This document shows, in pieces, positions 1,045 to 34,357 of a stretch of 47,952 nucleotides of DNA. The stretch covers positions 1-47,952 of the IMG/VR virus record IMGVR_UViG_3300004242_000129, one strand, 5' to 3'. The translations under genes were made by a program, and so were the position numbers. The stretch is from a virus. Every line of letters starts with the position of its first letter. The stretch's first letter is position 1. Under the pieces are notes generated by a model. That model saw only the letters and a list, made by a program, of their open reading frames with translations, ran no database searches and was not told the DNA's origin.

Positions 1045-1216
1045 CCTCGGAAACAACCAAAGAGGACGCAGAAGCCACAGACGGGGGAGGTGGCGTCGGG
1101 TGTCGATCGAAATCGTCACATGGAGGCGAGATCCTTTCCCAAGGTGACGCATCGGAACATGTAGACGACGGCACCTGAGCCGAAGACAAAGACCCAAAGC
1201 AAACGTGAGGAACACG

Positions 1217-1381
1217 ATGAACACTCTTGGAAACGGAATCCGCAAGACCTCTGCACGCCCCATCAAGATCCACGTCGCCGAGAACGGCGAGGTTTGGTAC
1301 TGCGACGCCGAAGTAAGCACCGAGAAAGGATTCGCCAACGCGGGTTGCACGCCCCTGAGCGAGTCTCCGCAGCACAAGTAG
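1217..1381 (+). CDS. Small hypothetical protein (54 aa)
   Basis: ATG start with an upstream GTGAGGA Shine-Dalgarno-like stretch, 54 codons, TAG stop. The product starts MNTLGNGIRKTSARPIKI, contains GEVWYCDAEVST and ends SESPQHK, with two cysteines and no membrane segment. It is followed 21 bp later by a strong hairpin, which supports an independent small transcript. I do not recognise a family; it could be a small secreted or regulatory peptide, or a chance ORF. The 172 bp upstream of it show no other feature. Confidence 0.4.
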   Translation: MNTLGNGIRKTSARPIKIHVAENGEVWYCDAEVSTEKGFANAGCTPLSESPQHK

Positions 1382-1402
1382 TCGATCCTCACGACTGCTC
1401 TC

Positions 1403-1449
1403 GCACGGGGTGGAACCGGAAACGTCCCCTTCCTGGTTCTACCCCGTGC
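1403..1449 (+). terminator. Strong stem-loop, probable terminator of the small ORF
   Basis: GCACGGGGTGGAACC (from 1403) pairs with GGTTCTACCCCGTGC (to 1449) through 15 pairs including one G-U. GGAA/TTCC extends the stem inside the loop. No long T-run follows (CCTATTTGG), so it may be an RNA-end-protecting hairpin rather than a classical intrinsic terminator. The rest of 1450-1655 shows nothing coding that I can support. Confidence 0.55.
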
Positions 1450-1655
1450 CCTATTTGGCGTCCCAAAGCTGAGAACACAACCCGTCGCCACGCAGCTACC
1501 CACATCCGCACAAGTAACGAAATCATCTGCGCCTCTCTGCGGAATCTGCGGCCAACTCCGATGGCTACGGATCTGGGTGAATGGCACGCGGTGGCCGCTG
1601 ACCCTGGCTTCGTGATACAAGAGCTCCTGGCGTCTGTTCGCCTTGGAGACGGGAC

Positions 1656-4097: not shown

Positions 4098-4101
4098 GTC
4101 T

Positions 4102-4126
4102 CCCAGCTCACGGGCGCTTCGCTGGG
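4102..4126. terminator. Inverted repeat between convergent genes, possible bidirectional terminator
   Basis: CCCAGC (4102-4107) pairs with GCTGGG (4121-4126) across 13 nt in the 54-bp gap between the convergent CoA-transferase and transporter genes. There is no U-tract, so the assignment rests on position. Confidence 0.35.
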
Positions 4127-4151
4127 CTGCACCGCCGTGCCGGACCGAGCC

Positions 4152-5693
4152 CTACGGAGACACCGGCTTCGGAAGCTCGTACGTCAGACCCGCACCAGGA
4201 CCGAGGGGAAGACCCAGCTGGATCCACCCGATGAGCAGGAGCACCCAGCCAATGGAGAACGCAATCGAGTAGGGGAGCATCGTGGAGACGATGGTCCCGA
4301 TGCCGGCCTTCGCGTCGTACTTCTGGAAGTAGGCAATGATGAGGGCGAAGAAGCTCATCATCGGGGAGATGACGTTGGTGACGGAGTCCCCGACCCGGAA
4401 AACGGCCTGGGAAAGCTCGGGAGAGTAGCCGAGGAGCATGAACATGGGGACGAAGATGGGGGCCATGATGGCCCACTTCGCGGACGCGCTGCCCATCACC
4501 AAGTTGATCAAAGCCGTGAGCACCACGAACAGCAAGATCAACGGGATCACGCCGAGGTCGGCGGCGACAAGGACCTCCGCCCCCCGGACGGCCAGGATCA
4601 CCCCGAGGTTGCTCCAGCGGAAGTACGCCACGAACTGCGCCGCGAAGAACACGAGAACCATGTAGCCCGAGAGGGCCTTGAGGCTGCCCGTCATCCCGTG
4701 GACGACGTCGCTGTCGTTCTTGAACTTCCCTGTGACGAAGCCGTACACCACCCCCATGGTGGCGGCGGTGACGAAGAGGGTGGCAATGACTCCCTTGAGG
4801 AGGGGAGAAGAGAGCAAGCCGCCGTCGGCGCCGCGCAGGACGCCGTTTTCGGGAAGAAGCCCCGCGGCCACGACGGCCAGCCAGGCGACGAGCGCGAGGG
4901 CGCTCCAGCGAATGCCCTTCTTCTCTTGGTCGGACAGCCGTTCGATGGTCTCTTGCTCTCCCTTGTAGTCGCCGCAGCGGGGGGCGACGATCTTCTCCGT
5001 GACCCACGTTCCGATGAGCACGATGAGGAACGTGGAGACGAACATGAAGTAGTAGTTGGCGGTCGGGTTCACGCGGTAGTACGGGTCGAGGATGTGGGCG
5101 CCCTCCTCGGTCAGGCCTGCGAGCAAGGGGTCGATGGTCCCGAGGACCAGGTTCGCGCTGAAGCCCCCGGACACGCCAGCGAACGCCGCCGCCATCCCCA
5201 CGATGGGGTTCCTTCCGACGGCGGAGAACACAACGCCAGCAAGGGGAATGAGCAGTACGTAACCGATGTCGCTGGCCGTGTTGGAGAGCACGCCGGCCAG
5301 CACGATCACGAGGGTCATGGCGCGCTTGGGGGCAGAGAGCACGAGCATCCGGATGACGGCGCTGATGAGGCCGCTGCTCTCGGCGATGCCGATGCCGAGC
5401 ATGGCCACCATCACGACCCCGAGGGGAGCGAAGCTGGTGTAGGCGGGGACCATCTCCTCGATGATGCGGGCGACTCCGCTTTTCGACAGAAGGTTCAGCG
5501 GGGTCACGATCTCGCCGGTGGCAGGGTGCTTCGCCTGCCACCCCAGCCAGCTGCCCAAGGCCGACAAGGCCAGGGTGAGCAGCGCAAAGATGGCGAACAG
5601 CGAGGCGGGGTTGGGAAGCGCGTTGCCTACCCGCTCGACCGTGTTGAGGAAGCGGTCGACGAGGGTAGTGCGCGCCGTCGGGGTGCTCGTCAT
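4152..5693 (-). CDS. abgT: AbgT-family transporter (p-aminobenzoyl-glutamate type)
   Basis: 513-aa polytopic inner-membrane protein of normal AbgT length (about 500-520). Family hallmarks include NALPNPASLFAIFALLTL near the N-terminus, VVMVAMLGIGIAESSGLI, SNTASDIGYVLLIPLAG, AAAFAGVSGGFSANLV and the C-terminal GSASAKWAIMAPIFVPMFML. The family contains p-aminobenzoyl-glutamate importers and proton-driven sulfonamide/antimetabolite exporters; the substrate here cannot be read from sequence. The ATG at 5693 has AAGGAAG upstream. An upstream in-frame ATG (5765) would add 24 non-family residues and is rejected. It is divergent from the xth gene across 94 bp. Confidence 0.9.
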   Translation of the reverse strand: MTSTPTARTTLVDRFLNTVERVGNALPNPASLFAIFALLTLALSALGSWLGWQAKHPATGEIVTPLNLLSKSGVARIIEEMVPAYTSFAPLGVVMVAMLGIGIAESSGLISAVIRMLVLSAPKRAMTLVIVLAGVLSNTASDIGYVLLIPLAGVVFSAVGRNPIVGMAAAFAGVSGGFSANLVLGTIDPLLAGLTEEGAHILDPYYRVNPTANYYFMFVSTFLIVLIGTWVTEKIVAPRCGDYKGEQETIERLSDQEKKGIRWSALALVAWLAVVAAGLLPENGVLRGADGGLLSSPLLKGVIATLFVTAATMGVVYGFVTGKFKNDSDVVHGMTGSLKALSGYMVLVFFAAQFVAYFRWSNLGVILAVRGAEVLVAADLGVIPLILLFVVLTALINLVMGSASAKWAIMAPIFVPMFMLLGYSPELSQAVFRVGDSVTNVISPMMSFFALIIAYFQKYDAKAGIGTIVSTMLPYSIAFSIGWVLLLIGWIQLGLPLGPGAGLTYELPKPVSP

Positions 5694-5787
5694 GCCCACT
5701 TCCTTGTCTCGACAGCGTGAAACGTCCAGCACTTCAGGTCGGATTGGGGATCTTCTCCCCCACACCTCCGTGCGCTACGGTGGCCGC

Positions 5788-6606
5788 ATGCCCCCGACGA
5801 GCAAGAAGACGAAGTCCTTCCGTGTCTACTCCTGGAACGTCAACGGCCTGCGAGCCGCCTCCACGAAGGGGTTCACCGAGTGGCTGGGAGACTGCAAGGG
5901 GGACGTGGTCGGTCTGCAGGAGACCCGCGTCCGCCCGGACCAGTTGGAGGCCTCGCTGCTATCTCCGAACGGCTGGCACGCGGACTACGTTGCGGCGGAG
6001 CGGTCGGGCTACAGCGGAGTCGGCCTTCTCGCGCGCAATCGCTGGACCACCCTGCAGACTTCGCTCGGTGTGAAGGCGTTCGACGTCGAGGGTCGCTTGC
6101 AGATTGCGCAGTTCGGGAAACTCTGGGTGGTGAACGGGTACTTCCCGAACGGCAGTGGAAAGGAGAGGGACAACGGGCGGGTGCCGTTCAAGCTTTCGTT
6201 CTACCGCAAGGTGTTCGAGGTGCTGGAGCCGTTGCGGGCGAACGGGGGCAGGGTGCTGGTGATGGGGGACTTCAACACGGCGCACCGGGAGATCGACCTG
6301 GCGAGACCGAAGCAGAACGAGAAGACGAGCGGGTTCTTGCCCGAGGAGCGAGAGGAGCTCGACCGATGGGTTCGGGCGGGGTGGGTGGACACGTTTCGAC
6401 GGTTCGAGCCCGGGCCGGGGCACTACACGTGGTGGAGCCAGCGGTTCGGGGTGAGGGAGAAGAACATCGGATGGCGGATCGACTACGTGCTGGCGAGCGA
6501 GGGGGCGATGGGGTTCGTGCGGGGGGCGGGGATCCTGCCGCAGGTGATGGGGAGCGACCACTGCCCGATCTGGGTGGACCTGGACCCTGGCGTGCTCGAG
6601 GCGTGA
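5788..6606 (+). CDS. xth: Exodeoxyribonuclease III / AP endonuclease
   Basis: 272-aa EEP-superfamily nuclease for base-excision repair (AP-site incision and 3' end cleaning). Motifs in order: YSWNVNGLRA, LQETRV (metal-binding Glu), VNGYFPNG, VMGDFNTAHREIDL, and C-terminal SDHCPIWVDL with the catalytic Asp-His. Length is normal for Xth/ExoA. The ATG at 5788 matches the family N-terminus. No Shine-Dalgarno is visible, but TACGGT lies 7 nt upstream, as at 28147, so translation may be leaderless. Last host protein gene before the integration site. Confidence 0.93.
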   Translation: MPPTSKKTKSFRVYSWNVNGLRAASTKGFTEWLGDCKGDVVGLQETRVRPDQLEASLLSPNGWHADYVAAERSGYSGVGLLARNRWTTLQTSLGVKAFDVEGRLQIAQFGKLWVVNGYFPNGSGKERDNGRVPFKLSFYRKVFEVLEPLRANGGRVLVMGDFNTAHREIDLARPKQNEKTSGFLPEEREELDRWVRAGWVDTFRRFEPGPGHYTWWSQRFGVREKNIGWRIDYVLASEGAMGFVRGAGILPQVMGSDHCPIWVDLDPGVLEA

Positions 6607-6614
6607 CGTAGGGC

Positions 6615-6642
6615 TTGCCACCGTCGTCGAATCGGCTATCAT
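6615..6642 (+). promoter_or_regulatory. Promoter for tRNA-Arg
   Basis: TTGCCA (6615-6620), 16 bp, then TATCAT (6637-6642). The predicted start is near 6649, about 40 nt before the tRNA. Confidence 0.5.
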
Positions 6643-6687
6643 GCGCCGCCGCCCTTTCGTGGGGCCGGTTTGACAACCAAAGCCTTT

Positions 6688-6760
6688 GCCCCCGTAGCTC
6701 AGAGGATAGAGCAGCGGTTTCCTAAACCGTTGGTCGCAAGTTCGACTCTTGCCGGGGGCG
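6688..6760 (+). tRNA. tRNA-Arg(CCT)
   Basis: Complete cloverleaf. Acceptor GCCCCCG pairs with CGGGGGC (6753-6759) and the discriminator is G6760. D-arm is GCTC...GAGC. Anticodon stem GCGGT/ACCGT has loop TTCCTAA, anticodon CCT (reads AGG). T-arm is GCAAG-TTCGACT-CTTGC. CCA is not encoded. It carries its own upstream promoter and abuts the phage integrase, the usual arrangement for tRNA-targeting tyrosine integrases. Confidence 0.95.
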
Positions 6761-6773
6761 CAGCGTTTCCCGT
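6736..6773. other. Probable left prophage attachment junction (attL)
   Basis: The T-arm and 3' end of tRNA-Arg lie directly beside the stop codon of the integrase gene. By analogy with tRNA-integrating phages, the crossover core should lie within the tRNA 3' half. The matching attR is outside the window, so core length and exact edge are unknown. Confidence 0.55.
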
Positions 6774-7985
6774 CTACCCAGTGGGCTTACCGTGGGCTTG
6801 ACGCGCCGGACGCACCTCAGCCGAGGGCAACGCCATCGCGGCCCGCGTCTCCTCCGCAGCTCTGACCACGGCGGACCGTGCCAGGTGAGCGTACCGCTGC
6901 GTGGTCGTGATCGAGCGGTGCCCCATGAACTCGCGCACCTCCTCGAGTGACCAGGCACGCCCCCAGGAGCCGGAGACGAGCATCGAGGCGCAGGTGTGCC
7001 GGAGCGAATGCCACGTCACCGGAGTCCCGGTCTGCCCACGCACGATGGACACGCCTCTAGCCCACCACAGCGGAGGAGGACCTGGGCACCTTGTCGCGCG
7101 TCGTGACCCTCGGAGCGGAGGGAAGGCAACTCCGGTATCCGCGATCTTGCGGGCGACGGTGGGGTGCGAACTCCACCGCTCCCAGGCCTCGTCGGCTCCG
7201 GGCAGGAGAGGGACGTACCGGATGCGGCGCGTCTTCGTCGGCCCGTCGGACGTGCCACGGCGCACCACAACGTGAGGGTGTGGGGAGTCGGCATGCACGT
7301 CCACGCTCCGCAGCGCCCATTGTTCCCCCTCTCTCATCCCCGTCCATACCGCCCACTGCACGAGCCACCGATACGGCTCCGCGATGCCTTCCAGGAGCGT
7401 CATCTGCTCGCCAAGGTCCAGCCACGTCCACGGCTCCACGATAGAGCGCTTGAGGTCTTCCTGGCGCTTGGGAACCGTCACTCCGGCGGCCGGGTTCACC
7501 GCGATGAGCCTGTCGTTGACGGCAGAGGCCAGGCACGAGCGCATGAGGTTCAGCGCGTTGCGAATCGTCTGTGGGGACAGTAGGCCGTTGTCCCCGGTCC
7601 GGTGGCGGTTGCCTCGTCGCCTTCCAGATCTGGCTACTCGTTCGACCCACGAGCGCACGTCGTACGGCTCGATCGCTCGCACGGGCAGATCTGCGATGGG
7701 ATGCGGCGCGATGTGCACGTTCCAACGACTGCGCTCGTCGACGAGGCCTTGCTCGTCTCTTCGGTCGAGCCAAAGCGCACCGTACTCGGACAGCGTTGCT
7801 CCCACCGCAGGGCGGACGCGTGCCTTTGCGAGGTCGTCGGCTGCGGCTGCCAGGATGGCGCTTGCTTCCTCGATGGTGTCGACGATGCCGAGGCTACGCC
7901 TGACGCCTAGGTCGTCGGTTATCCGGATCCGGTACCTGCCCCGGTGCGCCTCGATCGTGCCTGTCCCGCGTGGTCGTCGTTGCAT
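6774..7985 (-). CDS. int: Tyrosine-type phage integrase
   Basis: 403 aa. N-terminal arm-binding-like region (GTIEAHRGRYRIRITDDLG), then a core-binding SAM-like domain at about residues 60-170. The catalytic domain carries the first Arg in WTGMREGEQW, HSLRHT (His-x-x-Arg), MGH and the nucleophile Tyr in QRYAHL. All R-H-R-H-Y residues are present, so it should be active in site-specific integration at tRNA-Arg. The start at 7985 has CAGGAGTG upstream. It is the last gene of the leftward operon; its 5' end overlaps the preceding small ORF by 67 bp, which suggests translational control. Confidence 0.95.
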   Translation of the reverse strand: MQRRPRGTGTIEAHRGRYRIRITDDLGVRRSLGIVDTIEEASAILAAAADDLAKARVRPAVGATLSEYGALWLDRRDEQGLVDERSRWNVHIAPHPIADLPVRAIEPYDVRSWVERVARSGRRRGNRHRTGDNGLLSPQTIRNALNLMRSCLASAVNDRLIAVNPAAGVTVPKRQEDLKRSIVEPWTWLDLGEQMTLLEGIAEPYRWLVQWAVWTGMREGEQWALRSVDVHADSPHPHVVVRRGTSDGPTKTRRIRYVPLLPGADEAWERWSSHPTVARKIADTGVAFPPLRGSRRATRCPGPPPLWWARGVSIVRGQTGTPVTWHSLRHTCASMLVSGSWGRAWSLEEVREFMGHRSITTTQRYAHLARSAVVRAAEETRAAMALPSAEVRPARQAHGKPTG

Positions 7986-8173: not shown

Positions 8174-9582
8174 GCCGTCATCTCCCTTCGGCGCTCCATC
8201 ACGTTCGCGGCAACGATCGCCTCGGCCACCTGCGGGCAGACCGAGTTGCCGGCGAGCGCGATCTGAGCCGTCTTCGTCAGTGGCTTACCGTTGGACTCCG
8301 GGGCAATGACGTAGTCGCTCGGGAAGCCCTGCGCGGCGAACAGCTCGTGGGGCTGGAGCATGCGCATGCCGATGTCCACGATCTGGTATGCCTGCCCGGA
8401 GACCATCACCAGGCCGACGTGCCCGCCTCCACGGCCACCGCCAGCCGTGATGGTCGGAAGCGGCTGCTGGCAATCCGAGCCCGTGCTGGTCCCGTAGAAC
8501 TTCGTGAGGAAGGCAGCGGTCAACGCGTGGTGGTCCTTCGACGTGACCGTGCCGAGCGTCCGGTCGACGCGATGCCCGACCATCCCGCCGTAGTGCTTCG
8601 TGATGACGGGAGCGACTAGGTGCTTGTCGTTCGTGGCGCAGACCGTACCGAGCGGGATGCGGAGTTGCTGTCCTCGGAACGTGCCGGCTCCGCACCCTTC
8701 ACGCAGACCCGCACCGGTGATGGTCGAGTAGTGTCCGTGGCGAACGAGGAACGGGGTTACGAGGCCGAACCGATCTCGCGTGGTGGCGGTCGGCAATGGT
8801 GCGCCAATCTCCCGCCCGACTGACTGGCCGTAGTAGCTGACGATGAACGGCTCCGCCGCGTCGATCACGTAGCGCTGAATTCCAGCCGCAATCCGCTTGA
8901 GCGTCGCCTCAGCAAGCGGGCGCTGGCGATCAAAAATGCTGGGGCACGGGAGGCTCCAGTCGATGATGCCGGACGCCGCGCGCCACGGATTCTGCCTGCC
9001 GGTGCCGTGGGTCGGCGAGGGCCACAGGCACGGCTCCCCGTCCCGACGCGCTACCAGGAAGAGCCGCTTGCGGGTCGTGGGAGTGCCGTAGTCCGCTGCC
9101 ACGAGCGAACGAAACTCTACCTCGTAGCCAAGGCTCGTAAGCTTGCCGAGCCACGCACGGAAGGTCTTCCCTACGCCTCTCGGATCCGGCCTTCCGTCGA
9201 CAACCGGGCCCCACGTCTGGAACTCCTCGACGTTCTCGAGGACGATGACGCGGGGGCGCACGGTAGACGCCCATCGAATGACGACCCAGGCGAGGCCACG
9301 GATCGACTTCTTGACAGGCTGGGTGCCCTTTGCCCGGCTGAAGTGGGTGCAATCTGGGCTGAACCATGCGAGCCCCACGGGCCGACTCCCGCACGCCTCC
9401 CGCGGGTCGACCTCCCAGATGTTCTCGCAGAAGTGCTTCGTCCCCGGGTGGTTTGCCCGGTGCATGGCGATCGCCTCGGGGCTGTGGTTGATCGCGATGT
9501 CCACGGGGCGCCCGATCGCGGCCTCGATGCCAGTCGAAGCCCCTCCGCCTCCGGCGAAGTTGTCGACGACGAGTTCGATCAC
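8170..9582 (-). CDS. DNA (cytosine-5) methyltransferase
   Basis: 470 aa. Motif I is FAGGGGAS (about residues 9-16). The catalytic Cys is C78 in SPDCTHFS, the phage-type variant of the PC motif. Then come ENVEEF (116-121), TPTTRKRLFLVAR (motif VIII), a long target-recognition region, and C-terminal MLQPHELFAAQGFP and GNSVCPQVAEAIV (motifs IX-X). It transfers methyl from SAM to C5 of cytosine, probably protecting phage DNA from host restriction; no cognate endonuclease is adjacent. The GTG at 9582 overlaps the upstream stop as GTGA with GTGGAGGC before it. The frame stays open further upstream, but that stretch is the SbcC-like gene in another frame. Confidence 0.92.
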   Translation of the reverse strand: MIELVVDNFAGGGGASTGIEAAIGRPVDIAINHSPEAIAMHRANHPGTKHFCENIWEVDPREACGSRPVGLAWFSPDCTHFSRAKGTQPVKKSIRGLAWVVIRWASTVRPRVIVLENVEEFQTWGPVVDGRPDPRGVGKTFRAWLGKLTSLGYEVEFRSLVAADYGTPTTRKRLFLVARRDGEPCLWPSPTHGTGRQNPWRAASGIIDWSLPCPSIFDRQRPLAEATLKRIAAGIQRYVIDAAEPFIVSYYGQSVGREIGAPLPTATTRDRFGLVTPFLVRHGHYSTITGAGLREGCGAGTFRGQQLRIPLGTVCATNDKHLVAPVITKHYGGMVGHRVDRTLGTVTSKDHHALTAAFLTKFYGTSTGSDCQQPLPTITAGGGRGGGHVGLVMVSGQAYQIVDIGMRMLQPHELFAAQGFPSDYVIAPESNGKPLTKTAQIALAGNSVCPQVAEAIVAANVMERRREMTA

Positions 9583-12014
9583 GCCTCCACCCTCACCTTC
9601 CCATCCGAGATGACGATCCGCGCGTCGGCAAGCTCCTGGACGTCGATCGAATGCGACACGAAGAGCACCTGGCTCGCTCCGACGATGTCTGCTGCCCTGC
9701 GGAGCATCGCCACGTACGCCCGCCCGTTTGCTGGGTCGAGCGCCGCGCCCGTCTCGTCTCTGATCAACGAGCCGCCCTCCACTCCCGCCCGCCTGCACGC
9801 CAGCATCGAGAGCGCGAGGGCCACAGCCTCGCCGACCAGCACGCGCTCCCCACCGGACAGCGACTCGGCAGAGGCCTCTCTTCCCCGCTCCGTGTCGATT
9901 ACCCGGACGTCGCAATCCTCGAGCACCTTCTTCCCGTCGGCGCTGTTGCGCTGAGTTTCGATCGAAACGGTCCAGCGTGGCCCGACGCAACTGCGCAGCA
10001 AATCGTTGACGAGCTCCGTCAGTTCTGGCCCCACGGCGTCGATCTCGTAGGCCTGCAGCCCGTTTCGCCCGAGGTCCGCGGCAAGCTTCGTCCAGTCGGC
10101 GAGCTCGCACTCGAGGGCATTGCGGTCCTGCTCGAGCTGGGCCGTGCGCTCGGCCGACTCCCTCGCCTGTCGGAGGGCGTGTTCGCGAACTGGGGGCGCC
10201 GCGTGCGCGTCTCGCGCCGCCCGCTCTGCCTGGCGGAGGGCCAACCGGGCGCCCTCGATGTCCGGCGCCCGCGGAACCTCGGGCGGGGGACCGAGCGCGG
10301 CGACGACGCGCCCAGTCTCGACCACCTCGGCAGTCGCTGCGTCAAGCTGCGGCGTCAGTTCCTCGATCCGGGCCTGCGCGGTGTCGAGGTGGGATGCCCG
10401 GAGGGCTACGCGCTCGACGTCCCGGAGGCGTGCGTCTCCCTCCTGGATCGCAGCGTGGAGTCGACCACGCTCCTTCTCCGCCTCGCCTGCCCGCTTGCTC
10501 GCGTCTTCGTGCCGGGCAATGGCGTAGTCGCGATCGGTCTCTGCCTGTTCCAGGTCGCGTCGTGCCGCGGAGAGGTCCTGGTGTGCAAGGTCCAGGTCGG
10601 GAGCACGGGAGGCGAGCCTCTCGCAGGCTTCCAGTGCCCTGCGTTCGCGTTCGAGCGCCATGAAGGCGTCGGCCTGCGCGCGAGACGCGGCGTTGATCTG
10701 GTCGGGAAGCTCCTTCGCCTGCGCCACCACGTCGTCATCGTCGAGGAGAGCGTGGGCCGCGATCTGCCTTGCGTGCCCCCAGTCCTCAGCTTGAGGAATC
10801 CTTTCTAGCCCTCCACGCAGACCTCCGATCCGCTCCTCCGCCCCCGCCACCCGCTGGCCCATCAGCGCTTCGTGCGCTTCCTTCGCCTCCAGGTGCTTCG
10901 CAGCGGCGACTCCCACGGCGTCCCTGAGCCTCTCCAGGTCTGCAACGGCGGCCTCGATGGCCTTCCGGTCGGCGAGACGGCGGACAGCGGCGGCTTCGCG
11001 CTGGCGTGCGGCGTCTGCCTGGCGCTTCGCGTTCGCTGTGCGATCGCGCCATTGCTTCGCCGTGCGTCGGTGTTCTTCTGCGTCGCGAATTACCGCGTCA
11101 CGGGCGGCGGAAAGCTCGTCCACCTCCTTGCGGAGCCTCTCGAACTCCACCACTGCCCGGCGAATGGCTTCCGCGTCGTCGAGGACGCGACGGTTGTTGT
11201 CGATTCGCCGGTTCAGATCGGCGATGCGCTCGGTCAGCGCGACGTGCTTCACGTCCAGCCTGGCTCGCTCCGCGGAGTAGAGCGCAGCGGCTTGGAGCGA
11301 GTCTTCCCTCTTGCGAGCCTCTTCCTCGGCCTTCGCCAAGGCCTCCTTGGCGATCTCCAACTCGGCGTCGGCCTCTTCAGCGTTGCCCTTCGCCACGCGT
11401 AGCTCGAACTCCGCCTCCTCCACGTCGAGCCCCCTGGCCCTCCCGTCCTCCAGCCGCGCCTGCACCACGGCGAGCGCCTGGCGCGCATCCCTCTCGCGCT
11501 CCCGGGCCTTCTCGGCCAGGCCCTCGAGGTGCTCGATTCCAAGCGCTCTCAGCAGCACAGCTTTCCTGTCCCCGGGCTTCATGTCGAGGAATCCACCGCT
11601 GCCCTGCGCTGAGAACACGGAGCTGAAGAACACCTCGGGGGATGGGAGGTGCTGCGCGGCCCACCGGTCGAACTCCGCCACCTTGCCGGAAGGCAACATC
11701 GGAGCTCCGGAGGCGTCGAGCACGAGGGACTCGCCCTTGCGGGATGCGGCGTCGACCGTGTGGCGAATCGTGTACGCTGCCCCGTTGACTGCTCTGACCT
11801 CAAGGTAGGAGTCCCGGCCCGTCGCCAGGTCGGACAGTCTCCCGCGGGTCGGCGTGGTGCGGTAGAGGCCGGCGGCGAGCAGCTCGAGGAGCGTGCTCTT
11901 CCCAGCACCATTCGCACCCGCGATGGCAACGATTCGTCCCGGGACGCCCGACAGGTCCAGCAATACGTCTCCGAATGGGCCGAGGTTTCGGACTGCGATG
12001 GATTCGAATCTCAT
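9579..12014 (-). CDS. SbcC/Rad50-like ATPase
   Basis: 811 aa SMC-type protein. Walker A GANGAGKST lies at residues 33-41, a very long charged coiled-coil region follows (about 170-650), and the C-terminal lobe has signature LSGGERVLVGEA, a Walker B-like LIRDETGAALD and H-loop VLFVSHS. The region between the coils has no CxxC, so the Rad50 zinc hook is not evident. It should partner the SbcD-like nuclease encoded two genes upstream in DNA end processing, as T4 gp46/gp47 do. The start at 12014 has a perfect AGGAGG and overlaps the preceding gene as ATGA. Confidence 0.88.
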   Translation of the reverse strand: MRFESIAVRNLGPFGDVLLDLSGVPGRIVAIAGANGAGKSTLLELLAAGLYRTTPTRGRLSDLATGRDSYLEVRAVNGAAYTIRHTVDAASRKGESLVLDASGAPMLPSGKVAEFDRWAAQHLPSPEVFFSSVFSAQGSGGFLDMKPGDRKAVLLRALGIEHLEGLAEKARERERDARQALAVVQARLEDGRARGLDVEEAEFELRVAKGNAEEADAELEIAKEALAKAEEEARKREDSLQAAALYSAERARLDVKHVALTERIADLNRRIDNNRRVLDDAEAIRRAVVEFERLRKEVDELSAARDAVIRDAEEHRRTAKQWRDRTANAKRQADAARQREAAAVRRLADRKAIEAAVADLERLRDAVGVAAAKHLEAKEAHEALMGQRVAGAEERIGGLRGGLERIPQAEDWGHARQIAAHALLDDDDVVAQAKELPDQINAASRAQADAFMALERERRALEACERLASRAPDLDLAHQDLSAARRDLEQAETDRDYAIARHEDASKRAGEAEKERGRLHAAIQEGDARLRDVERVALRASHLDTAQARIEELTPQLDAATAEVVETGRVVAALGPPPEVPRAPDIEGARLALRQAERAARDAHAAPPVREHALRQARESAERTAQLEQDRNALECELADWTKLAADLGRNGLQAYEIDAVGPELTELVNDLLRSCVGPRWTVSIETQRNSADGKKVLEDCDVRVIDTERGREASAESLSGGERVLVGEAVALALSMLACRRAGVEGGSLIRDETGAALDPANGRAYVAMLRRAADIVGASQVLFVSHSIDVQELADARIVISDGKVRVEA

Positions 12015-12457
12015 TGCTGCCTCCTGCTCCACTCTCGGCATTCTCGGCACATGTGGTGACCGTCGCCGTTGCAGTCCCCGCCAGGCAGACCCGAAACGAA
12101 GCGGTCGCAGCCTTCGCGAGCCCCCCTCGGTGTGTCCGGCCCCGCGAGCATGTCCCTGATCTCCCGCAGCGCGGCAGGTCCGTCGTGGATGCCCTGCTCA
12201 CACTCGTAGGCGTACTGCTCGCACGCGTGGGCGATCTCGTTGCGTTCGCGCTCCAGTTCGGCCACCTTCGCGCGCCACGCGTCCGCCACTGTCTTGTCGT
12301 AGCCCTCTCGGATCCTGACGTGCATGTCGGCCTCGCGCTCCTCCGCCACGACATGAGCGCATTCGTTGCAGTACCTCGTCGGCTCCTGATCTGGCTCCGT
12401 CATGAGATACTCTTCACCGCATCGAGCACAGACGGGCGGGTCTTCAATCGTGCTCAC
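12011..12457 (-). CDS. Zinc-ribbon protein within the SbcCD-like operon
   Basis: 148 aa. N-terminal CARCGEEY and CNECAHVV form one likely zinc ribbon. A helical centre follows (AWRAKVAELERERNEIAHAC), and the C-terminus has a second Cys/His cluster (CNGDGHHMCRECREW). It overlaps the SbcD-like stop by GTGA and the SbcC-like start by ATGA, so it is translated with both. Conserved placement between the two subunits would suggest an accessory DNA-binding factor; no family recognised. Confidence 0.65.
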   Translation of the reverse strand: MSTIEDPPVCARCGEEYLMTEPDQEPTRYCNECAHVVAEEREADMHVRIREGYDKTVADAWRAKVAELERERNEIAHACEQYAYECEQGIHDGPAALREIRDMLAGPDTPRGAREGCDRFVSGLPGGDCNGDGHHMCRECREWSRRQQ

Positions 12458-13596
12458 GCCGCCACCTCCTCTTCGATCTGGCTGGCCTTCCCGAGCAGGG
12501 ACGGCTCGCGCTCCCCGAGGTCCTCTCCCTTGGCCTTCCAGTACGCCCGGAGCTTGTCGGTCAGGGTCTTGGCTTCCGCCACCTCTGGCGCCCTGGCACG
12601 CACCGAGGTCTCGACGACTTCTTCGAGTTTCACCACCGCCCCCCTCGCCAGGGCTGTTGCGCGGTATTCCTCCGCTCGCGCCCGGGCCGCTTCCCGATGC
12701 TCTCCGGGGACCACGTAGCGAAGTCGGACCTCAGCACCCGCGACGTCCGTGAGGCGGTGAAGACCGAAGAGGATTCCGTGCTCCGCATCCCAGACGGCTT
12801 CGAGCAGGAGCATCGGGGTGGCGGGAGTCTCGATGAACCTCCAATCGAAGTCGCGGAATGGGTCGCCGTCGGAGAACTCGGCCACGAGGTACCCCTTCCG
12901 CTCGAGTTCTCCGAACGCGGTGCGCCTCGGGGAGCCTGGATAGACGAGGGATGCGCCGTCGGAACTCTCAAACCGCTGGTGCTGGTGGATGTGTCCGAGG
13001 GCGACAAGGTCCGCCCCCGCTAGCGCCAGGTCATCCACTCCAACGGACATGTCACATCCAACGAGGGGCTGGCCTGAGCTGGTGGTACTGCCGTCCACCA
13101 TGGCGTGTGTGAGCAGCACCCGGGGACCGTCGTGCTGCTCGAGCTGCTGTCGAAAGCTGAGGAGTACGGCCCGGAGGGCTTCCGAGGCAGCCGTTGAGCT
13201 GTCGGCACCAGCGTCGACCCTCGCCATGAGTTCGGCCTTCCGCGGCCATGCGAGGCAAGCCACCGCGGCCCCAGCGACGTAGTGCACTCCCGCTGCCTCC
13301 TCGACCGTGATCGGGTGACGCGCCTTGAGCCTGCCCATCAGTGGCAAGTCGCCCAGGGCGTCGTGATTACCCCTCACGATGACGACGGGGGCCGCCGCTG
13401 CGACTCGCTGCAGCCAATCGGCCACCGCCTTCCGTTCTGTGGGGGTGGACTTGGCGTCGAACAGGTCCCCGGAGTGCAGGACGAGGTCCACATCGCGTCG
13501 TTGCATGTCCTGCGCGATCCACTCGTGGATGCGCACGCATTCGTCGAATCGGCTTCGCTCGGAGAAGTGGCTATCGGCGATGATTGCGATTCTCAT
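12454..13596 (-). CDS. SbcD/Mre11-like metallophosphoesterase nuclease
   Basis: 380 aa. Calcineurin-type metal-binding motifs in order: IIADSHF (D8, H10), HSGDLFD, VRGNHDAL, LLTHAM and LGHIHQHQ. The C-terminal third is a capping domain of the SbcD type. With the SbcC-like ATPase it should form an ATP-dependent exo/endonuclease acting on DNA ends. The ATG at 13596 has GAGGTG upstream; a GTG two codons earlier is possible. The stop overlaps the zinc-ribbon gene as GTGA. Confidence 0.9.
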   Translation of the reverse strand: MRIAIIADSHFSERSRFDECVRIHEWIAQDMQRRDVDLVLHSGDLFDAKSTPTERKAVADWLQRVAAAAPVVIVRGNHDALGDLPLMGRLKARHPITVEEAAGVHYVAGAAVACLAWPRKAELMARVDAGADSSTAASEALRAVLLSFRQQLEQHDGPRVLLTHAMVDGSTTSSGQPLVGCDMSVGVDDLALAGADLVALGHIHQHQRFESSDGASLVYPGSPRRTAFGELERKGYLVAEFSDGDPFRDFDWRFIETPATPMLLLEAVWDAEHGILFGLHRLTDVAGAEVRLRYVVPGEHREAARARAEEYRATALARGAVVKLEEVVETSVRARAPEVAEAKTLTDKLRAYWKAKGEDLGEREPSLLGKASQIEEEVAA

Positions 13597-13608
13597 GTTC
13601 ACCTCGGT

Positions 13609-15329: not shown

Positions 15330-15826
15330 GCCACCCTCCTCCCGATCCCCAGAGCAGCCACGCACCCATCAGGGTCTCGCTGGATGTCGGCCAGCTCGTG
15401 GGCGTCCCACTGTCCCGGGTCGACGGTCACGGAGAGCGTGGACCCACAGGTGCAATTCCTGAGCTCCAACCGCTCGCCCCACTCCATCCTCTGCTCACCG
15501 ATGCTCGGCAGGTCGCCCCACCGGTGGGACAGCCCGCAGGCGCAGCGGACCCGCGACTGCTCGAGGGCCCGCCGAGTCACCTGCCGAACCGCGGCGATCT
15601 TGTCCCCTCCGAGGACAGGCACGGAAGCGATGACGGAGCCTCCCACGTAGACCTTGGCGCGGCCGTTGGAGATGGCGACGCCCGGATGGTACAGGACGGG
15701 CTCCAACGTCTCCTGAGCGGCATCCAGAGCCCGCGTGAGCGGGTTCGGCGGGAGCGTCTCCCCGCACTCTGGGCAAGGCGTGTCCGTTCCGCCGCCACCG
15801 CAGAGGGAGCAGGGGAGGCGTTTCAT
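15326..15826 (-). CDS. Zinc-ribbon protein (166 aa)
   Basis: N-terminal CSLCGGGGTDTPCPECG is a four-cysteine zinc knuckle resembling the DnaJ/rubredoxin type. A central beta-rich stretch (VAISNGRAKVYVGGSVIASV) follows, then a second Cys set (CACG... CTCGS). ATGA overlaps on both sides. Nucleic-acid or protein binding is likely; specific role unknown. Confidence 0.6.
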   Translation of the reverse strand: MKRLPCSLCGGGGTDTPCPECGETLPPNPLTRALDAAQETLEPVLYHPGVAISNGRAKVYVGGSVIASVPVLGGDKIAAVRQVTRRALEQSRVRCACGLSHRWGDLPSIGEQRMEWGERLELRNCTCGSTLSVTVDPGQWDAHELADIQRDPDGCVAALGIGRRVA

Positions 15827-16020
15827 GCCCCCACCGCCTGGCGAATCTCGGCCACCTCATCCATGTCGGACGCTGCGATCCGGTAGGTCACGTCGCCACC
15901 GTGACGGTGACGGGTCACGTCCTCCGAGTAGACGGTGGAGAGGGCGCGCTCGACGTGCGCATGCTCGGGCGTGTGCTCCTCGACGGTGAGGACGACCGTG
16001 TGGGTGATTTGGACCTTCAC
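15823..16020 (-). CDS. Small beta-rich early protein (65 aa)
   Basis: GTG start at 16020 in a GTGA overlap with the preceding stop. The product starts MKVQITHTVVLTVEEHTPEH and ends ASDMDEVAEIRQAVGA; predicted beta-alpha-beta fold with several His. Unknown function. Confidence 0.55.
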   Translation of the reverse strand: MKVQITHTVVLTVEEHTPEHAHVERALSTVYSEDVTRHRHGGDVTYRIAASDMDEVAEIRQAVGA

Positions 16021-16232
16021 GCTGCCACCTCCTCGATCCAGTCGTTGCGGAGCGCGACCCGAACAGCCAGGTCACGGGAGGGCACCTTGGCGACGCAGAC
16101 CGGGCCGCGGTTGGTCGGGCGCATGACGCGGAAGCCGCCCGCTCGGGCCATGCGGCCAGGGGCCTTCTGGGGCCGAGTCATCGCGTCGATGTTGAAGTCC
16201 AGGTCAGAAGCTTCGATCTCGCGGGTCACCAT
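16017..16232 (-). CDS. First gene of the leftward early operon (71 aa, hypothetical)
   Basis: ATG at 16232 preceded by CAGGAGGAAC. Downstream of the leftward promoter at 16253-16280, it is the first gene transcribed. The product (MVTREIEASDLDFNIDAMTR ... ALRNDWIEEVAA) is basic in the middle (RMARAGGFRVMRPTNRG). No family recognised; first genes of such operons often act on the host or as antiterminators. Confidence 0.6.
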   Translation of the reverse strand: MVTREIEASDLDFNIDAMTRPQKAPGRMARAGGFRVMRPTNRGPVCVAKVPSRDLAVRVALRNDWIEEVAA

Positions 16233-16252
16233 GTTCGTTCCTCCTGACGCAC

Positions 16253-16280
16253 ACTATAGCGATAGCGCGTATCGAGTCAA
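16253..16280 (-). promoter_or_regulatory. Leftward early promoter (PL-like)
   Basis: On the minus strand TTGACT (16280-16275), 16-bp spacer, TATAGT (16258-16253). Strong sigma70 match. The spacer is filled by an inverted repeat CGATA-GCGCG-TATCG (16260-16274), the ideal place for repressor occlusion. The start site should fall about 15 nt upstream of the 16232 start codon. Confidence 0.75.
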
Positions 16281-16306
16281 GAGGATGGTTATCGTTTTTG
16301 TGATAA
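16260..16306. promoter_or_regulatory. Operator-like inverted repeats, left control region
   Basis: Two inverted repeats: CGATA/TATCG at 16260-16274 inside the promoter spacer, and TTATC/GATAA at 16289-16306 just upstream of the -35. The first contains GCGATAG, also present in both operators at 18078-18129. Likely CI/Cro binding sites. The remaining 16307-16425 stretch is AT-richer than its surroundings and probably holds the promoter of the rightward ImmA-like gene, which I cannot place exactly. Confidence 0.6.
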
Positions 16307-16425
16307 TTCTTTGCGCACAGTGTGCTACCAGATCATTCGGTGCGCGCGGCTTGACTCCGTTCCGTTTCGTTTGAAGCGAATCAGGAAAAGTGGACCGAGC
16401 GGCTCCATGGAGCGATCATCCGTCC

Positions 16426-17076
16426 ATGACGTGGCAGCGAATCGAGGGCGAAGCCGAGCATGTGCTGCGAACGGCAGGCCTTGATGACTTCGTGCGGGTC
16501 CCTGTCCGCCCCGCGGTCGAAGCTGTACTCGGACGCGGCGCGCTTCGGTTCGTGTCGAGGAGGGAGCTTCGTGGGATGGCGGAGCTGGGGAGCGACGGCG
16601 GGCGCGCGGTCATCCGCGTCGCCCACGGGCTTCCGATCGCGGCAGGCCGGTTTGCCGCCGCGCACGAGCTCGGGCATGCCGTTCTTGGGCACGACCTTCG
16701 CAGGAATGATCGGATCGAGGCAGAAGCCGACCGGTTTGCGGCGGCTCTGCTGATGCCGTGGCGAGCCCTTCACTGCCTGCGGGCCGAACTTGGAGACGAC
16801 CTCGAGGCCTTGGCCGACACCTTCCTCGTCACCCAGACGGCGGTGGCGCTACGCCTGGGGGAGGTTGGTGAGGTAGCGGCGTCCATCGTGGTGGCTCCAG
16901 GGGCGGTGCGAGCACGCTCGATCGGAGAGATTGTCCTTCCGACCGAGGAGGACCTTCGGTGGCTCGCGCGGGCATCGGATGACGAGCTCGAGCGGGTCGG
17001 GCCCGGGATCAAGAAGGCGACGCTGACAGACGACCCTCGGCGCGTCGCCCTGGTGTTGAAGGACGAGGTTGGGTGA
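16426..17076 (+). CDS. ImmA/IrrE-family metallopeptidase
   Basis: 216 aa from the ATG at 16426; a GTG at 16390 with AGGA just before it would add 12 residues and remains possible. Zinc site H80-E81-x-x-H84 in AAHELGHAVLGH, with the downstream Glu in RIEAEADRFAAALLMP. In phages and ICEs this family cleaves or inactivates the CI-type repressor, allowing induction. The CI-like gene lies two genes away on the other strand, which fits that role. The C-terminal third (EDLRWLARASDDELERVG) is extra, possibly substrate recognition. Confidence 0.85.
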   Translation: MTWQRIEGEAEHVLRTAGLDDFVRVPVRPAVEAVLGRGALRFVSRRELRGMAELGSDGGRAVIRVAHGLPIAAGRFAAAHELGHAVLGHDLRRNDRIEAEADRFAAALLMPWRALHCLRAELGDDLEALADTFLVTQTAVALRLGEVGEVAASIVVAPGAVRARSIGEIVLPTEEDLRWLARASDDELERVGPGIKKATLTDDPRRVALVLKDEVG

Positions 17077-17516
17077 TGCGCAAGGCCTTGCTCGCGGTCG
17101 CCATCGTCGCGGCTGGGTGCTGCAAGGACGCGCCAGCCGACCCGAAGGAGCAGAAGCCGGCTACTCCGCCACCAACGTCGGCCGTCCAGGCTCGCAAGAT
17201 GAAGGTGGAAGCCTCCGAGATCCTGTCCGACTACGAGAGCAACGAGGTGAGGGCGGACGGGTGGTATCGCGGCAAGCGCATGGAGGTGACGGGCAAGGTT
17301 TCCGAGGTCGCCAAGGACATGTCCGATGAGATCATGGTCGTCGTCGGCACCGGCAAGCCGAACGAGGTTCTGAAGCTGCGGTGCATGTTCAGCGACCGAT
17401 GGACGTCCCAGGTGGCTGCGCTGTCGAGGGGAAACGTCGTCACCGTCGATTGCAGGTGCGAAGGCATGTCGATCTTTCGGGTCGTGATGTCCGACTGCTC
17501 ACTGGTCAATCGGTAG
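17076..17516 (+). CDS. Lipoprotein with OB-fold-like domain, candidate superinfection-exclusion factor
   Basis: 146 aa. Signal peptide MRKALLAVAIVAAGC with lipobox VAAG-C, so membrane-anchored. A Pro-rich linker is followed by a beta-rich domain (ADGWYRGKRMEVTGKVSEVA ... RGNVVTVDCRCEG) resembling the tRNA_anti-like OB-fold of small lipoproteins. The ATG overlaps the peptidase stop as TGATG; a GTG one codon earlier is in frame. Located in the lysogeny module and probably expressed in the lysogen; envelope lipoproteins in this position commonly block related phages, but that is inference. Confidence 0.7.
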   Translation: MRKALLAVAIVAAGCCKDAPADPKEQKPATPPPTSAVQARKMKVEASEILSDYESNEVRADGWYRGKRMEVTGKVSEVAKDMSDEIMVVVGTGKPNEVLKLRCMFSDRWTSQVAALSRGNVVTVDCRCEGMSIFRVVMSDCSLVNR

Positions 17517-17519
17517 CCA

Positions 17520-18053
17520 TCACCGATCCAACGGCGGGTCGAGCTCGTCGCCAACGTCCACCTCCCCGCGAAGACGCTTCGCCTCGACCTCCCCGACCGA
17601 CACCTCGAACTGCAGCGCGTTCTGAGCGGCCACGAGCTGCTCGAGGAGCTGTTTAGCCGGCATCCGTGTCCCGCCCTTGCACAGTGTCATCGCTCGATCA
17701 ACAGCTTCCTGCTGCACGCCCAGCCACTTCGTTGCGAACGCGATGGTCTCGGCGGTCTCCGCGTCGTCGTCGAGATGTGAGGGGACCGTCAGCGTTCGTT
17801 CCCCGCGCAGCACCTCATCGATGGTCCATCCGAGGTACTTGGCCAGTCCGTTGAGCACGCGAACCCCGGCGCCCCGCTTCGGCGGGTCGGCGATGAACTC
17901 GTGGAGCATCGACTGCGAAATCCCGAGCGCGCGCGCCGCGGCCGACTCGTTCTTGTCGAACTGCTCCTTGACGATCCTGCGAGCGATCGCGCGCACCGTC
18001 TCGTTCTGAGACTTCTCGAGGGCCTTGGTCTTCGCTGTCATTTCGTCGTGCAT
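17520..18053 (-). CDS. CI-like phage repressor
   Basis: 177 aa. N-terminal helix-turn-helix at about residues 34-60 (ESAAARALGISQSMLHEFI), then GVRVLNGLAKYLGWTIDEVL of the XRE type. The C-terminal half is helical and has no S24 peptidase Ser-Lys motif, so it is not LexA-like self-cleaving. That agrees with a separate ImmA-type peptidase nearby. The ATG at 18053 has GAGGTGG upstream. Divergent from the Cro-like gene across an operator region, convergent with the lipoprotein gene. Confidence 0.8.
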   Translation of the reverse strand: MHDEMTAKTKALEKSQNETVRAIARRIVKEQFDKNESAAARALGISQSMLHEFIADPPKRGAGVRVLNGLAKYLGWTIDEVLRGERTLTVPSHLDDDAETAETIAFATKWLGVQQEAVDRAMTLCKGGTRMPAKQLLEQLVAAQNALQFEVSVGEVEAKRLRGEVDVGDELDPPLDR

Positions 18054-18077
18054 CGTACCACCTCGGCGGAATCACCT

Positions 18078-18129
18078 TTGCGATAGACGCAAGCCACTTG
18101 ACAGGTGGTCGAACGATTGCTATCGCAAT
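18078..18129. promoter_or_regulatory. Right operators and PR-like promoter
   Basis: Two perfect inverted repeats: TTGCG-ATAGA-CGCAA (18078-18092) and ATTGC-TATC-GCAAT (18116-18129). Rightward promoter: TTGACA (18098-18103), 17 bp, TATCGC (18121-18126), so the second operator covers the -10. The predicted transcript would start only a few nucleotides before the Cro-like ATG at 18136. TTGCGATAG is common to both sites. Confidence 0.7.
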
Positions 18130-18135
18130 AGTGAG

Positions 18136-18396
18136 ATGAACGGACCAGAGATGTTGGCAGGGTGGCGCCTCACCCAAGGGCTCTCGCAGACCGCTGCGGG
18201 GGACCTGGTCGGGGTCAGCCAGGTGACGTGGAGCGACTGGGAGAGCGGCAAGAAGTGTCCGCACGTTGGGCAGGCCGTGAAACTCGAAAGAGTGACAGGC
18301 GTGCCGTGTGAGGCATGGGAGGCCATCGCCGACGAACAGCGGAGACGCTTGCAGCAACGTCGCGCCGCAACCGTCGACCCGAAGGAAGCAGCGTGA
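18136..18396 (+). CDS. Cro-like XRE-family regulator
   Basis: 86 aa helix-turn-helix protein: MLAGWRLTQGLSQTAAGDL then GVSQVTWSDWESGKK and a recognition of the PSVGQAVKLE type (PHVGQAVKLERVTGV). The C-terminus is basic and Gln/Arg-rich. Divergent from the CI-like gene and directly behind the PR-like promoter. There is almost no leader and no clear Shine-Dalgarno, so it may be translated leaderless. Probable antagonist of the repressor. Confidence 0.8.
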   Translation: MNGPEMLAGWRLTQGLSQTAAGDLVGVSQVTWSDWESGKKCPHVGQAVKLERVTGVPCEAWEAIADEQRRRLQQRRAATVDPKEAA

Positions 18397-18569
18397 CGCC
18401 TCCCCGTTTCCACATGCGCCGTCTCTCGCTGCCGGAGTACGCCCGAGAGCAGGGCCGACTCGGCGACTACCGGGCGTTCGTCCGCGAACTCCGGGAAGAC
18501 TCCGCCGTGCGTCTCGTCATGCTCGACGGCGGCAATGGGTGGGCGATTCCTGGTGTGGAGGTGCTGTAG
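18393..18569 (+). CDS. Small basic protein behind Cro (58 aa)
   Basis: GTG start in a GTGA overlap with the Cro-like stop, GAAGGAAG upstream. The product contains MRRLSLPEYAREQGRLGDYR and RLVMLDGGNGWAIPGVEVL. Translationally coupled to Cro; unknown function. Confidence 0.55.
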   Translation: MTPPRFHMRRLSLPEYAREQGRLGDYRAFVRELREDSAVRLVMLDGGNGWAIPGVEVL

Positions 18570-18577
18570 ATGCACTC

Positions 18578-18648
18578 GCCGCTGCAGCACGATGGTCGTG
18601 CCCCCGGTTTGTACCCGGGAGGTCCCGGTTCGACTCCGGGCGGCGGCT
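18578..18648 (+). tRNA. Phage tRNA-Thr(TGT)
   Basis: 71-nt cloverleaf. Acceptor GCCGCTG/CGGCGGC is fully paired with one G-T. D-arm GCAC-GATGGTC-GTGC. Anticodon arm CCCGG-TTTGTAC-CCGGG has U33 and anticodon TGT. T-arm CCCGG-TTCGACT-CCGGG. Discriminator T18648; CCA not encoded. Position 8 is C and the D-loop lacks A14, so it is slightly divergent. It would read ACA, a codon expected to be rare in such GC-rich DNA. Confidence 0.7.
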
Positions 18649-18677
18649 CCGTGGGCTGACGGCCTACAAAAACCAAA

Positions 18678-18697
18678 CGCCCGGGTGGAGCCGGGCG
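18678..18697 (+). promoter_or_regulatory. Hairpin directly upstream of the CII-like gene's ribosome-binding site
   Basis: CGCCCGG-GTGGAG-CCGGGCG, 7 perfect pairs, ending two bases before AGGAGGG. Without a T-run it is unlikely to be a terminator. It could stabilise mRNA after tRNA processing or modulate initiation. Confidence 0.45.
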
Positions 18698-18710
18698 CAG
18701 GAGGGTTGTG

Positions 18711-19298
18711 ATGTCGATGCGAAACGTAGCTTTCATTGGGATGGATGTCAACGGGCATGCCTCTGAAGATGACGCGTGCCGAGAGGGCCCGACAGTCCGC
18801 AGAGTGCGAAAGCCCGCTGCCTGGACAGTCGAGCAGTGCAAAGCGAAGGCGGCACAGATCGTGGCCACCGCCCTTGCGACCGCCGGCCTTACGAGGCAAT
18901 CCGCCGCCGACGCCGCAGGCGTGTCCAGGTCGATGGTGGACAGGTGGATGGGCGCCGACATGCCTCGGACCATGCCCATCGGACGCCTACTCGTCATGGG
19001 CTCGTCGAGCGCGAGGGGGCGAGATGCAGCTCGTCTCATTTTGACGTCGGCCTTAGCGTACCTCGATGGGCCCGACCCGGTCGAGTCGTGCCGTACCCTC
19101 CGAGACCGGATCGACGACTTGCACGCGGAGGTTGGTGACGTCTCCTCGGCGTGGAGGGCTGCGATGGTCGATGGGTGCATCTCAGCTTCTGAGGCTCGTG
19201 ACTTGATGCGGGAAGTACACGAGGTCGAGATCGCGTGCGCGAAGATTCGCCACGAAGCTGCGAAGCTGGCTTCGGGGGAGGTGAGCAATGTCCGCTAA
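18711..19298 (+). CDS. CII-like (phage CP76-type) DNA-binding regulator
   Basis: 195 aa; ATG at 18711 six bases after AGGAGG. HTH at about 60-85 (LTRQSAADAAGVSRSMVDRWM). The C-terminal helical domain DLHAEVGDVSSAWRAAMVDG then CISASEARDLMREVHEVE resembles the phage CII/CP76 regulator family. Likely influences lysogeny or early transcription. It overlaps the next gene by 11 bases. Confidence 0.65.
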   Translation: MSMRNVAFIGMDVNGHASEDDACREGPTVRRVRKPAAWTVEQCKAKAAQIVATALATAGLTRQSAADAAGVSRSMVDRWMGADMPRTMPIGRLLVMGSSSARGRDAARLILTSALAYLDGPDPVESCRTLRDRIDDLHAEVGDVSSAWRAAMVDGCISASEARDLMREVHEVEIACAKIRHEAAKLASGEVSNVR

Positions 19299-34335: not shown

Positions 34336-34357
34336 CGGCCAATCGCAAGAGATGACT

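Follow-up and report, generated by a model that had tools for sequence, protein, structure and literature searches.

A candidate lambda-type operator switch with a convergent ImmA/IrrE-type protease gene in the immunity region of a temperate phage

Introduction

The locus described here raises the question of how a phage could silence its two early operons together, and how this silence could be broken, when two control regions with shared sequence elements are separated by genes for a metallopeptidase, a lipoprotein and a proposed repressor. In the original prediction, this arrangement had been read as a lambda-like two-promoter switch built on three inverted repeats with a common GCGATAG. 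The DNA analyzed is a virus record of 47,952 bases, which is called the window in the following. Judging from its sequence, we consider that the region is likely to be a temperate-phage immunity region, with an OL/OR switch of the lambda type in which an ImmA/IrrE-type protease would be the probable means of release. The two-promoter switch is well supported by a shared operator that is conserved in relatives and has a parallel in the phage record MW202476, but this operator is not the set of three repeats as they had been drawn.

The prophage and its relatives

The window is taken to comprise a prophage and its left bacterial flank, because bacterial genes, a tRNA-Arg and an integrase gene lie at the left and phage genes at the right. 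The left end (window 1-6761) begins with bacterial flank genes, including those for a CoA-transferase and an AbgT-family transporter, after which come the tRNA-Arg (6688-6761) and, adjoining it on the minus strand, a gene for a tyrosine integrase (6774..7985; Pfam Phage_integrase 4e-15, PHROG integrase 3e-45). The tRNA-Arg beside the integrase gene is a likely attachment site; no 14-mer of 6660-6800 is repeated elsewhere within the window.

The integrase gene occupies the far end of a leftward early block that also holds a cytosine methylase gene and two recombination-type genes on the minus strand, one for an SbcC-like ATPase (9579-12050; Pfam SMC_N/AAA_23) and one for an SbcD-like phosphoesterase (12454-13602; Pfam Metallophos), the SbcC and SbcD names of the genes in 9579..13602 being presumptive. 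The integrase and recombination gene content of this block is established, and its status as a single operon is assumed. Its first gene (16017..16232, minus strand) encodes 71 residues and is preceded by an AGGAGG ribosome site; the product has no Pfam or PHROG match, and a 42% identical gene exists in a relative (G002, see below). The rightward block includes, after the Cro-like gene, a gene for a CII-like regulator (18708..19298, plus strand; PHROG 101 CII-like 8e-10, Pfam Phage_CP76 5e-4, which is under its cut-off), and the rightward part continues with genes for a DnaB-like helicase, terminase, portal, head, tail sheath and tape measure proteins. Soon after cro, ARAGORN calls a tRNA-Thr (anticodon tgt) at 18578-18650. 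The best matches of the portal protein are found in Meiothermus, Thermus and Myxococcus phages, with 35-44% identity.

Three related records were found in IMG/VR. G001 (IMGVR 3300027739_000157) is identical to the window over the 4300 bases compared and is thus approximately the same phage, so that independent support comes from G002 (3300037045_000348), G003 (3300008255_000163) and MW202476. In G002, the repressor is 79% identical and the Cro-like protein, over the whole alignment, 87% identical; in G003, the latter is 81% identical; the G003 contig ends inside the repressor gene, and its left region was sought at the contig start and not found. A search of genome contigs yielded no relative of the repressor and only two weak HTH matches to Cro.

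Genes of the switch

The gene immA (16426..17076, plus strand) starts at the left control region and reads toward the repressor gene. It encodes an ImmA/IrrE-type metallopeptidase with the motif HELGH (Pfam Peptidase_M78, PF06114, 9e-14), whose best PADLOC match is CapP (1.2e-17) and for which a PDB search gave no match. This protease is proposed to act as an anti-repressor. Behind it, and overlapping its end, lies a cargo gene (17076..17516, plus strand) for a lipoprotein that resembles superinfection exclusion proteins (PHROG 8545 'superinfection exclusion Sie-like' 1.5e-14; Pfam tRNA_anti-like 1e-20). The proposed repressor gene (17520..18053) is on the minus strand and encodes a 177-residue HTH protein with weak HTH_26/HTH_3 matches. 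A match to Peptidase_S24, which would indicate a self-cleavage domain, was not obtained for it in Pfam up to E 1. Its predicted model is helical throughout and of low confidence (mean pLDDT 60), and a PDB search returned one weak match (E 0.19). On the other side of the right operators, and divergent from the repressor gene, is the gene for the Cro-like HTH protein of 86 residues (18136..18396, plus strand; Pfam HTH_3 1e-9; 81-87% identical in the relatives). The immA and repressor genes are therefore convergent, with the cargo gene between them, and do not form one operon.

The shared operator

The three inverted repeats of the original prediction are present, namely CGATAGCGCGTATCG at 16260-16274, TTGCGATAGACGCAA at 18078-18092 and ATTGCTATCGCAAT at 18116-18129, and each includes GCGATAG. 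This 7-mer alone is, however, not enriched (5 copies in the window against 3.1 expected, with at least 5 in 24/100 shuffles), and its offset from the dyad differs each time, so that the repeats, in the form drawn, do not make up a single operator. Repeats of this kind are together only weakly unusual: three with 5-bp arms occur in the two intergenic regions (275 bases), where the shuffle mean is 0.75 and at least three are reached in 165/3000 shuffles. In G002, the first repeat loses its right arm (TATCG to GAACG) and the second does likewise (CGCAA to CATGG); the third repeat is intact in G002 and has one arm base changed in G003. The three inverted repeats as a single operator were therefore rejected, as GCGATAG is placed differently per dyad and two arms are not conserved, and GCGATAG alone was rejected as a motif as well.

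The conserved unit is instead the near-palindromic 12-mer CTATWGCGATAG with a flanking CAC. An exact match, OL, is located at 16254..16265 (CTATAGCGATAG, plus strand) and is the same in G002; a second exact match, OR1, is located at 18120..18131 (CTATTGCGATAG, minus strand) and is the same in G002 and CTATAGCGATAG in G003. A weaker copy, OR2 (CCTTTGCGATAG, 18075..18086, plus strand), has 2 mismatches to CTATWGCGATAG and lies on the repressor side; its GCGATAG core is retained in G002 and G003, and in none of the three phages is its second half perfect. G002 retains CACTATAGCGATAGCG at PL and TTGCGATAG at OR2. Exact copies of CTATWGCGATAG number two each in the window, G001 and G002, one per control region, and one in G003, whose contig stops before the left region, inside the repressor gene. 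OL and OR1 lie 1866 bp apart in the window and 2516 bp apart in G002.

The motif search over the rest of the prophage that had been envisaged earlier returned, at up to 2 mismatches, just four places, which are OL, OR1, OR2 and 34340. The last of these (CTCTTGCGATTG, 34340-34351, 2 mismatches) is distant from the switch and probably a chance match. The shuffle figure for the 12-mer (0/100) counts palindromic places on both strands. The best 15-mer common to both intergenic regions matches at 14/15 positions, which was attained in 2/3000 dinucleotide shuffles; among 236 control pieces of the window, one attains 14/15, and it matches 18054-18068 and not the operator. The best common 19-mer reaches only 15/19 (attained in 33/2000 shuffles), so that about 15 bases account for most of the similarity. 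In a three-way alignment of the PR region, 21/24 operator columns are invariant as compared to 26/58 other intergenic columns. With TTGACA and the four columns that follow 18131 excluded, 16/48 other columns are invariant, with a Fisher p of 1.4e-5 for this choice. Sequence and conservation show the shared element and its restriction to the two control regions, as they do the gene layout and the protease motif.

In a search for a wider family with this operator, the pattern TTGACN{15,19}CTATCGCWATAG matched 25 IMG/VR stretches, of which three lie before a Cro gene and are the known relatives; the remaining 22/25 have, as judged by eye, no Cro-like ORF after them and were taken as chance. The pattern CACTATAGCGATAGN{4,20}GTCAA matched four stretches, which are the PL of two relatives, OR1 of G003 in reverse and one unrelated stretch.

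Promoters and neighboring sequence

The leftward block is predicted to be driven by PL (16253..16280, minus strand), in which TTGACT and TATAGT are separated by 16 bp. It is the sole promoter-like match in 15800-18700 (1 against 0.2 expected), and both hexamers are conserved in G002. It had been claimed that the first repeat fills the spacer of this promoter. TTGACT and TATAGT do flank the repeat, but as the conserved unit is the 12-mer and not the repeat, the operator site covers the -10 and is not purely within the spacer.

PR, which is proposed to drive cro, occupies 18098..18126 on the plus strand. The claim that the third repeat lies over a -10 behind TTGACA was borne out, in that TTGACA at 18098-18103 is followed after 17 bp by TATCGC at 18121-18126 inside the repeat, and OR1 thus lies across the proposed -10. 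TTGACA and the spacing are kept in 3/3 phages and a TGC precedes the -10, which itself agrees with the consensus in 3/6 positions; the promoter scan does not call PR. The distance from the -35 to the operator is 9 bp at PL and 16 bp at PR, so that the element is not merely a fixed promoter core. The cro ATG (18136) follows the proposed -10 by about 10 bp, and if this -10 is right, it would probably lie within a few bases of the transcript start, the position of which is itself deduced. The cro transcript is therefore probably leaderless or nearly so. The bases 18132-18155 after OR1, including the first cro codons (ATGAACGGACCA), are identical in the three phages, wobble positions too, which suggests that the 5' end of this transcript is under constraint.

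Just upstream of PL is an AT-rich palindrome, GTTATCGTTTTTGTGATA (TTATC-N8-GATAA, 16288..16305, plus strand), that is identical in G002 at 18/18 positions. A search with GTTATCGTTTTTGTGATA matched four stretches, two of them the relatives and two unrelated. A second conserved palindrome, GCACA-S-TGTGC, is seen at 16315-16325, between PL and immA. Both palindromes are possible UP element, activator, second-regulator or immA control sites. For the repressor and immA genes, no promoter was recognized in the window, so that control of immA from OL is deduced from position.

A parallel arrangement in MW202476

The ImmA protein matched 8 annotated phage records. Among the 4 examined, MW202476.1 (Caudoviricetes sp., Manatee Spring) has the convergent layout, and the other 3 do not have it in the stretches shown. 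The ImmA of MW202476 is 36% identical over 81% of the query. The gene order is the same as in the window, with leftward recombination genes, including one for an exodeoxyribonuclease, then ImmA reading rightward, an HTH ORF that faces it, and a Cro-like gene. The repressor candidate is this 174-residue ORF (L054 4495-5019), which is unannotated in the record and lies under two doubtful annotated genes. Its HTH matches are weak and under the Pfam cut-offs, and BLASTP gives no significant similarity between it and the repressor of the window.

As in the window, one operator family is confined to two regions, but it differs in sequence and position. The 16-bp palindrome GTCMAANGTGNTKGAC, a pattern written after its sites had been inspected, has exactly 3 copies in 77,056 bp even when 2 mismatches are allowed; the left region holds one and the right region two, and the reversed control gave 0. 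The palindrome overlaps the -35. Between the two regions, the best common 19-mer matches at 17/19 (1/2000 shuffles) and the best 15-mer at 13/15 (19/2000). For cro and the first leftward gene of MW202476, the start codons given in the record fall inside operators and are probably too early.

Regulation and release

On this basis, the following mechanism is proposed. The HTH repressor (17520-18053) and the Cro-like protein (18136-18396) would both bind the 12-bp near-palindrome CTATWGCGATAG. The operator over the -10 of PL would govern the leftward early genes for integration and recombination, and that over the proposed -10 of PR the rightward early genes for Cro, the CII-like protein and replication, so that both early operons would be off with the repressor bound. 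OR2, on the repressor side, probably tunes the promoter of the repressor itself. The immA gene and the exclusion-type cargo gene are read rightwards from the left control region, toward the repressor gene. Upon a DNA-damage signal, the ImmA/IrrE-type protease would cut the repressor and thereby release both operons. As the repressor has no detectable RecA-cleavable domain, this protease is the most likely route of release. Which proteins bind, where the -10 of PR lies, that proteolysis induces, whether the two regions loop together and when immA is expressed are parts of this scheme that we infer.

The part of the scheme that leaves most room for an alternative is the shared use of the element. 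The repressor might bind it while the Cro-like protein uses other sites, for example the palindromes at 16288-16305 and 16315-16325, which are conserved in G002, and the two proteins do differ in sequence around the HTH. No copy of either palindrome was seen in the OR region, however, and the sharing of sites by repressor and Cro is the usual scheme in lambda, as stated in the available portion of PMC11077077. We therefore regard separate Cro sites as rather unlikely and prefer binding of both proteins to the 12-mer. A somewhat smaller chance is given to the view that ImmA serves another element and that induction of this phage requires a different factor. The convergence of immA and the repressor gene, in place of the one operon of ICEBs1 or TP-J34, would fit such a view, and so would the P2-like phage ACA1, in which an IrrE-type gene is likewise kept apart from the repressor. 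Against it, the genes for ImmA, the repressor and Cro are kept together in the window as in G002 and MW202476, and the lack of a detectable S24 domain in the repressor also points to ImmA as its probable antagonist.

It is less probable still that the shared sequence is an extended promoter element, reflecting a preference of a host sigma factor or activator near the -10, rather than an operator. Both full copies do lie on a -10 in the same orientation relative to transcription, and the leftward one contains a good TATAGT, but PL and PR differ by 7 bp in the distance to the -35, a third copy is found at OR2 at no recognizable promoter, and the MW202476 element has another sequence and overlaps the -35 instead. 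That the repeats are mere chance matches in AT-rich promoter DNA is hardly credible: the shuffle results for GCGATAG and for the inverted repeats by themselves would allow it, but the operator reading is favored in that G002 and G003 conserve the element, that exact sites number two per genome, and that MW202476 offers a parallel case.

Comparison with known systems

The likeness to lambda lies in operators common to PL and PR, in a repressor gene and an exclusion-type gene between the two regions, in a spacing of about 2 kb, and in a leftward recombination and integration block opposite rightward cro and CII-like genes. In lambda, each region has three operators, whereas here one is evident at the left and two at the right (at up to 2 mismatches). 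The repressor, moreover, has no detectable self-cleavage domain, a protease gene lies inside the interval, and the exclusion-type cargo gene faces the repressor gene and follows the protease gene rather than the repressor gene. The separation of the left and right regions had been presented as a departure from lambda, but this does not hold, since repressor and exclusion genes lie between OL and OR in lambda as well; in the portions of the sources at hand, the distance from OL to OR is about 2.3 kb (PMC5880393) and the rex genes adjoin cI (PMC11077077). The unusual part is what the interval contains.

An HTH repressor and an M78-type protease in one module are also found in ICEBs1 (ImmR/ImmA) and in the CI-like/MpaR-type pairs of prophages. 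In the excerpts of PMC8960796 and PMC6872733, these pairs are described as cotranscribed, with the protease gene just downstream of the repressor gene, whereas here the two genes converge, with the start of the protease gene at the left operator region. Cleavage of HTH repressors by M78 proteases is known from ICEBs1, Listeria elements and Deinococcus, according to the same excerpts and that of PMC10904395. With two lambda features and one ImmR/ImmA feature (the same operon) absent, the locus is therefore a variant and a member of neither group.

The lysogeny module of Streptococcus thermophilus phage TP-J34, given as int, ltp, metalloprotease, crh and cro in the part of PMC3952083 available, has the same gene set of exclusion lipoprotein, metalloprotease, repressor and Cro. 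According to that part, the lipoprotein, protease and repressor genes of TP-J34 are read together as a single leftward set beside the integrase, whereas here the leftward recombination block has its own operator and protease and lipoprotein genes run toward the repressor gene. The best PADLOC match of the protease leads further to CapP/CapH, a regulator of CBASS. CapP and PprI (IrrE) cut an HTH repressor (CapH and DdrO, respectively) and respond to single-stranded DNA, as reported in the accessible parts of PMC10904395 and PMC13373217, but CapP/CapH and PprI/DdrO govern immune or repair genes and not a phage switch. The neighbors of the window protease are phage genes, with no CBASS or other immune operon beside it, and among six selected proteins scanned with PADLOC, none matched a CBASS core gene.

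For a convergent ImmA/repressor layout, no description was found in the literature searched, in the portions available, which is not proof of absence. With the same limitation, an OL/OR circuit with a convergent protease operon that starts at OL is a variant not found described. It would combine the lambda two-operator plan with another induction module, and DNA damage may then be sensed through direct proteolysis as opposed to RecA-driven self-cleavage. We would also suggest, tentatively and with clearly less confidence than the immunity region itself, that a recurring design could be represented, in which the left operator region of an OL/OR circuit separates the leftward early operon from an opposed protease operon, so that the element controlling PL also adjoins the gene of the putative repressor-destroyer. 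In such a design, induction would be RecA-independent and driven by single-stranded DNA that acts on ImmA, and the interval between the protease and repressor genes would be a landing site for interchangeable genes of exclusion or defence, as with the lipoprotein of one phage and the HSDR_N-type protein of another.

From the sequences compared, phages that look unrelated and differ in their operators seem to share the layout, so that a search for shared operators in regions flanking a convergent ImmA/repressor pair offers a route to further examples. A scan with an ImmA profile returned 4 loci, of which two are the known relatives and two distant ones (L063 and L064) have the ordinary order of repressor then ImmA on one strand. 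The interval between immA and the repressor gene can be regarded as a cargo site and a possible place to find new genes for exclusion or defence. At the cargo place of G002 (L006 3307-4383), an HSDR_N-type protein of 358 residues, for which PADLOC gave no match, is encoded instead of the lipoprotein.
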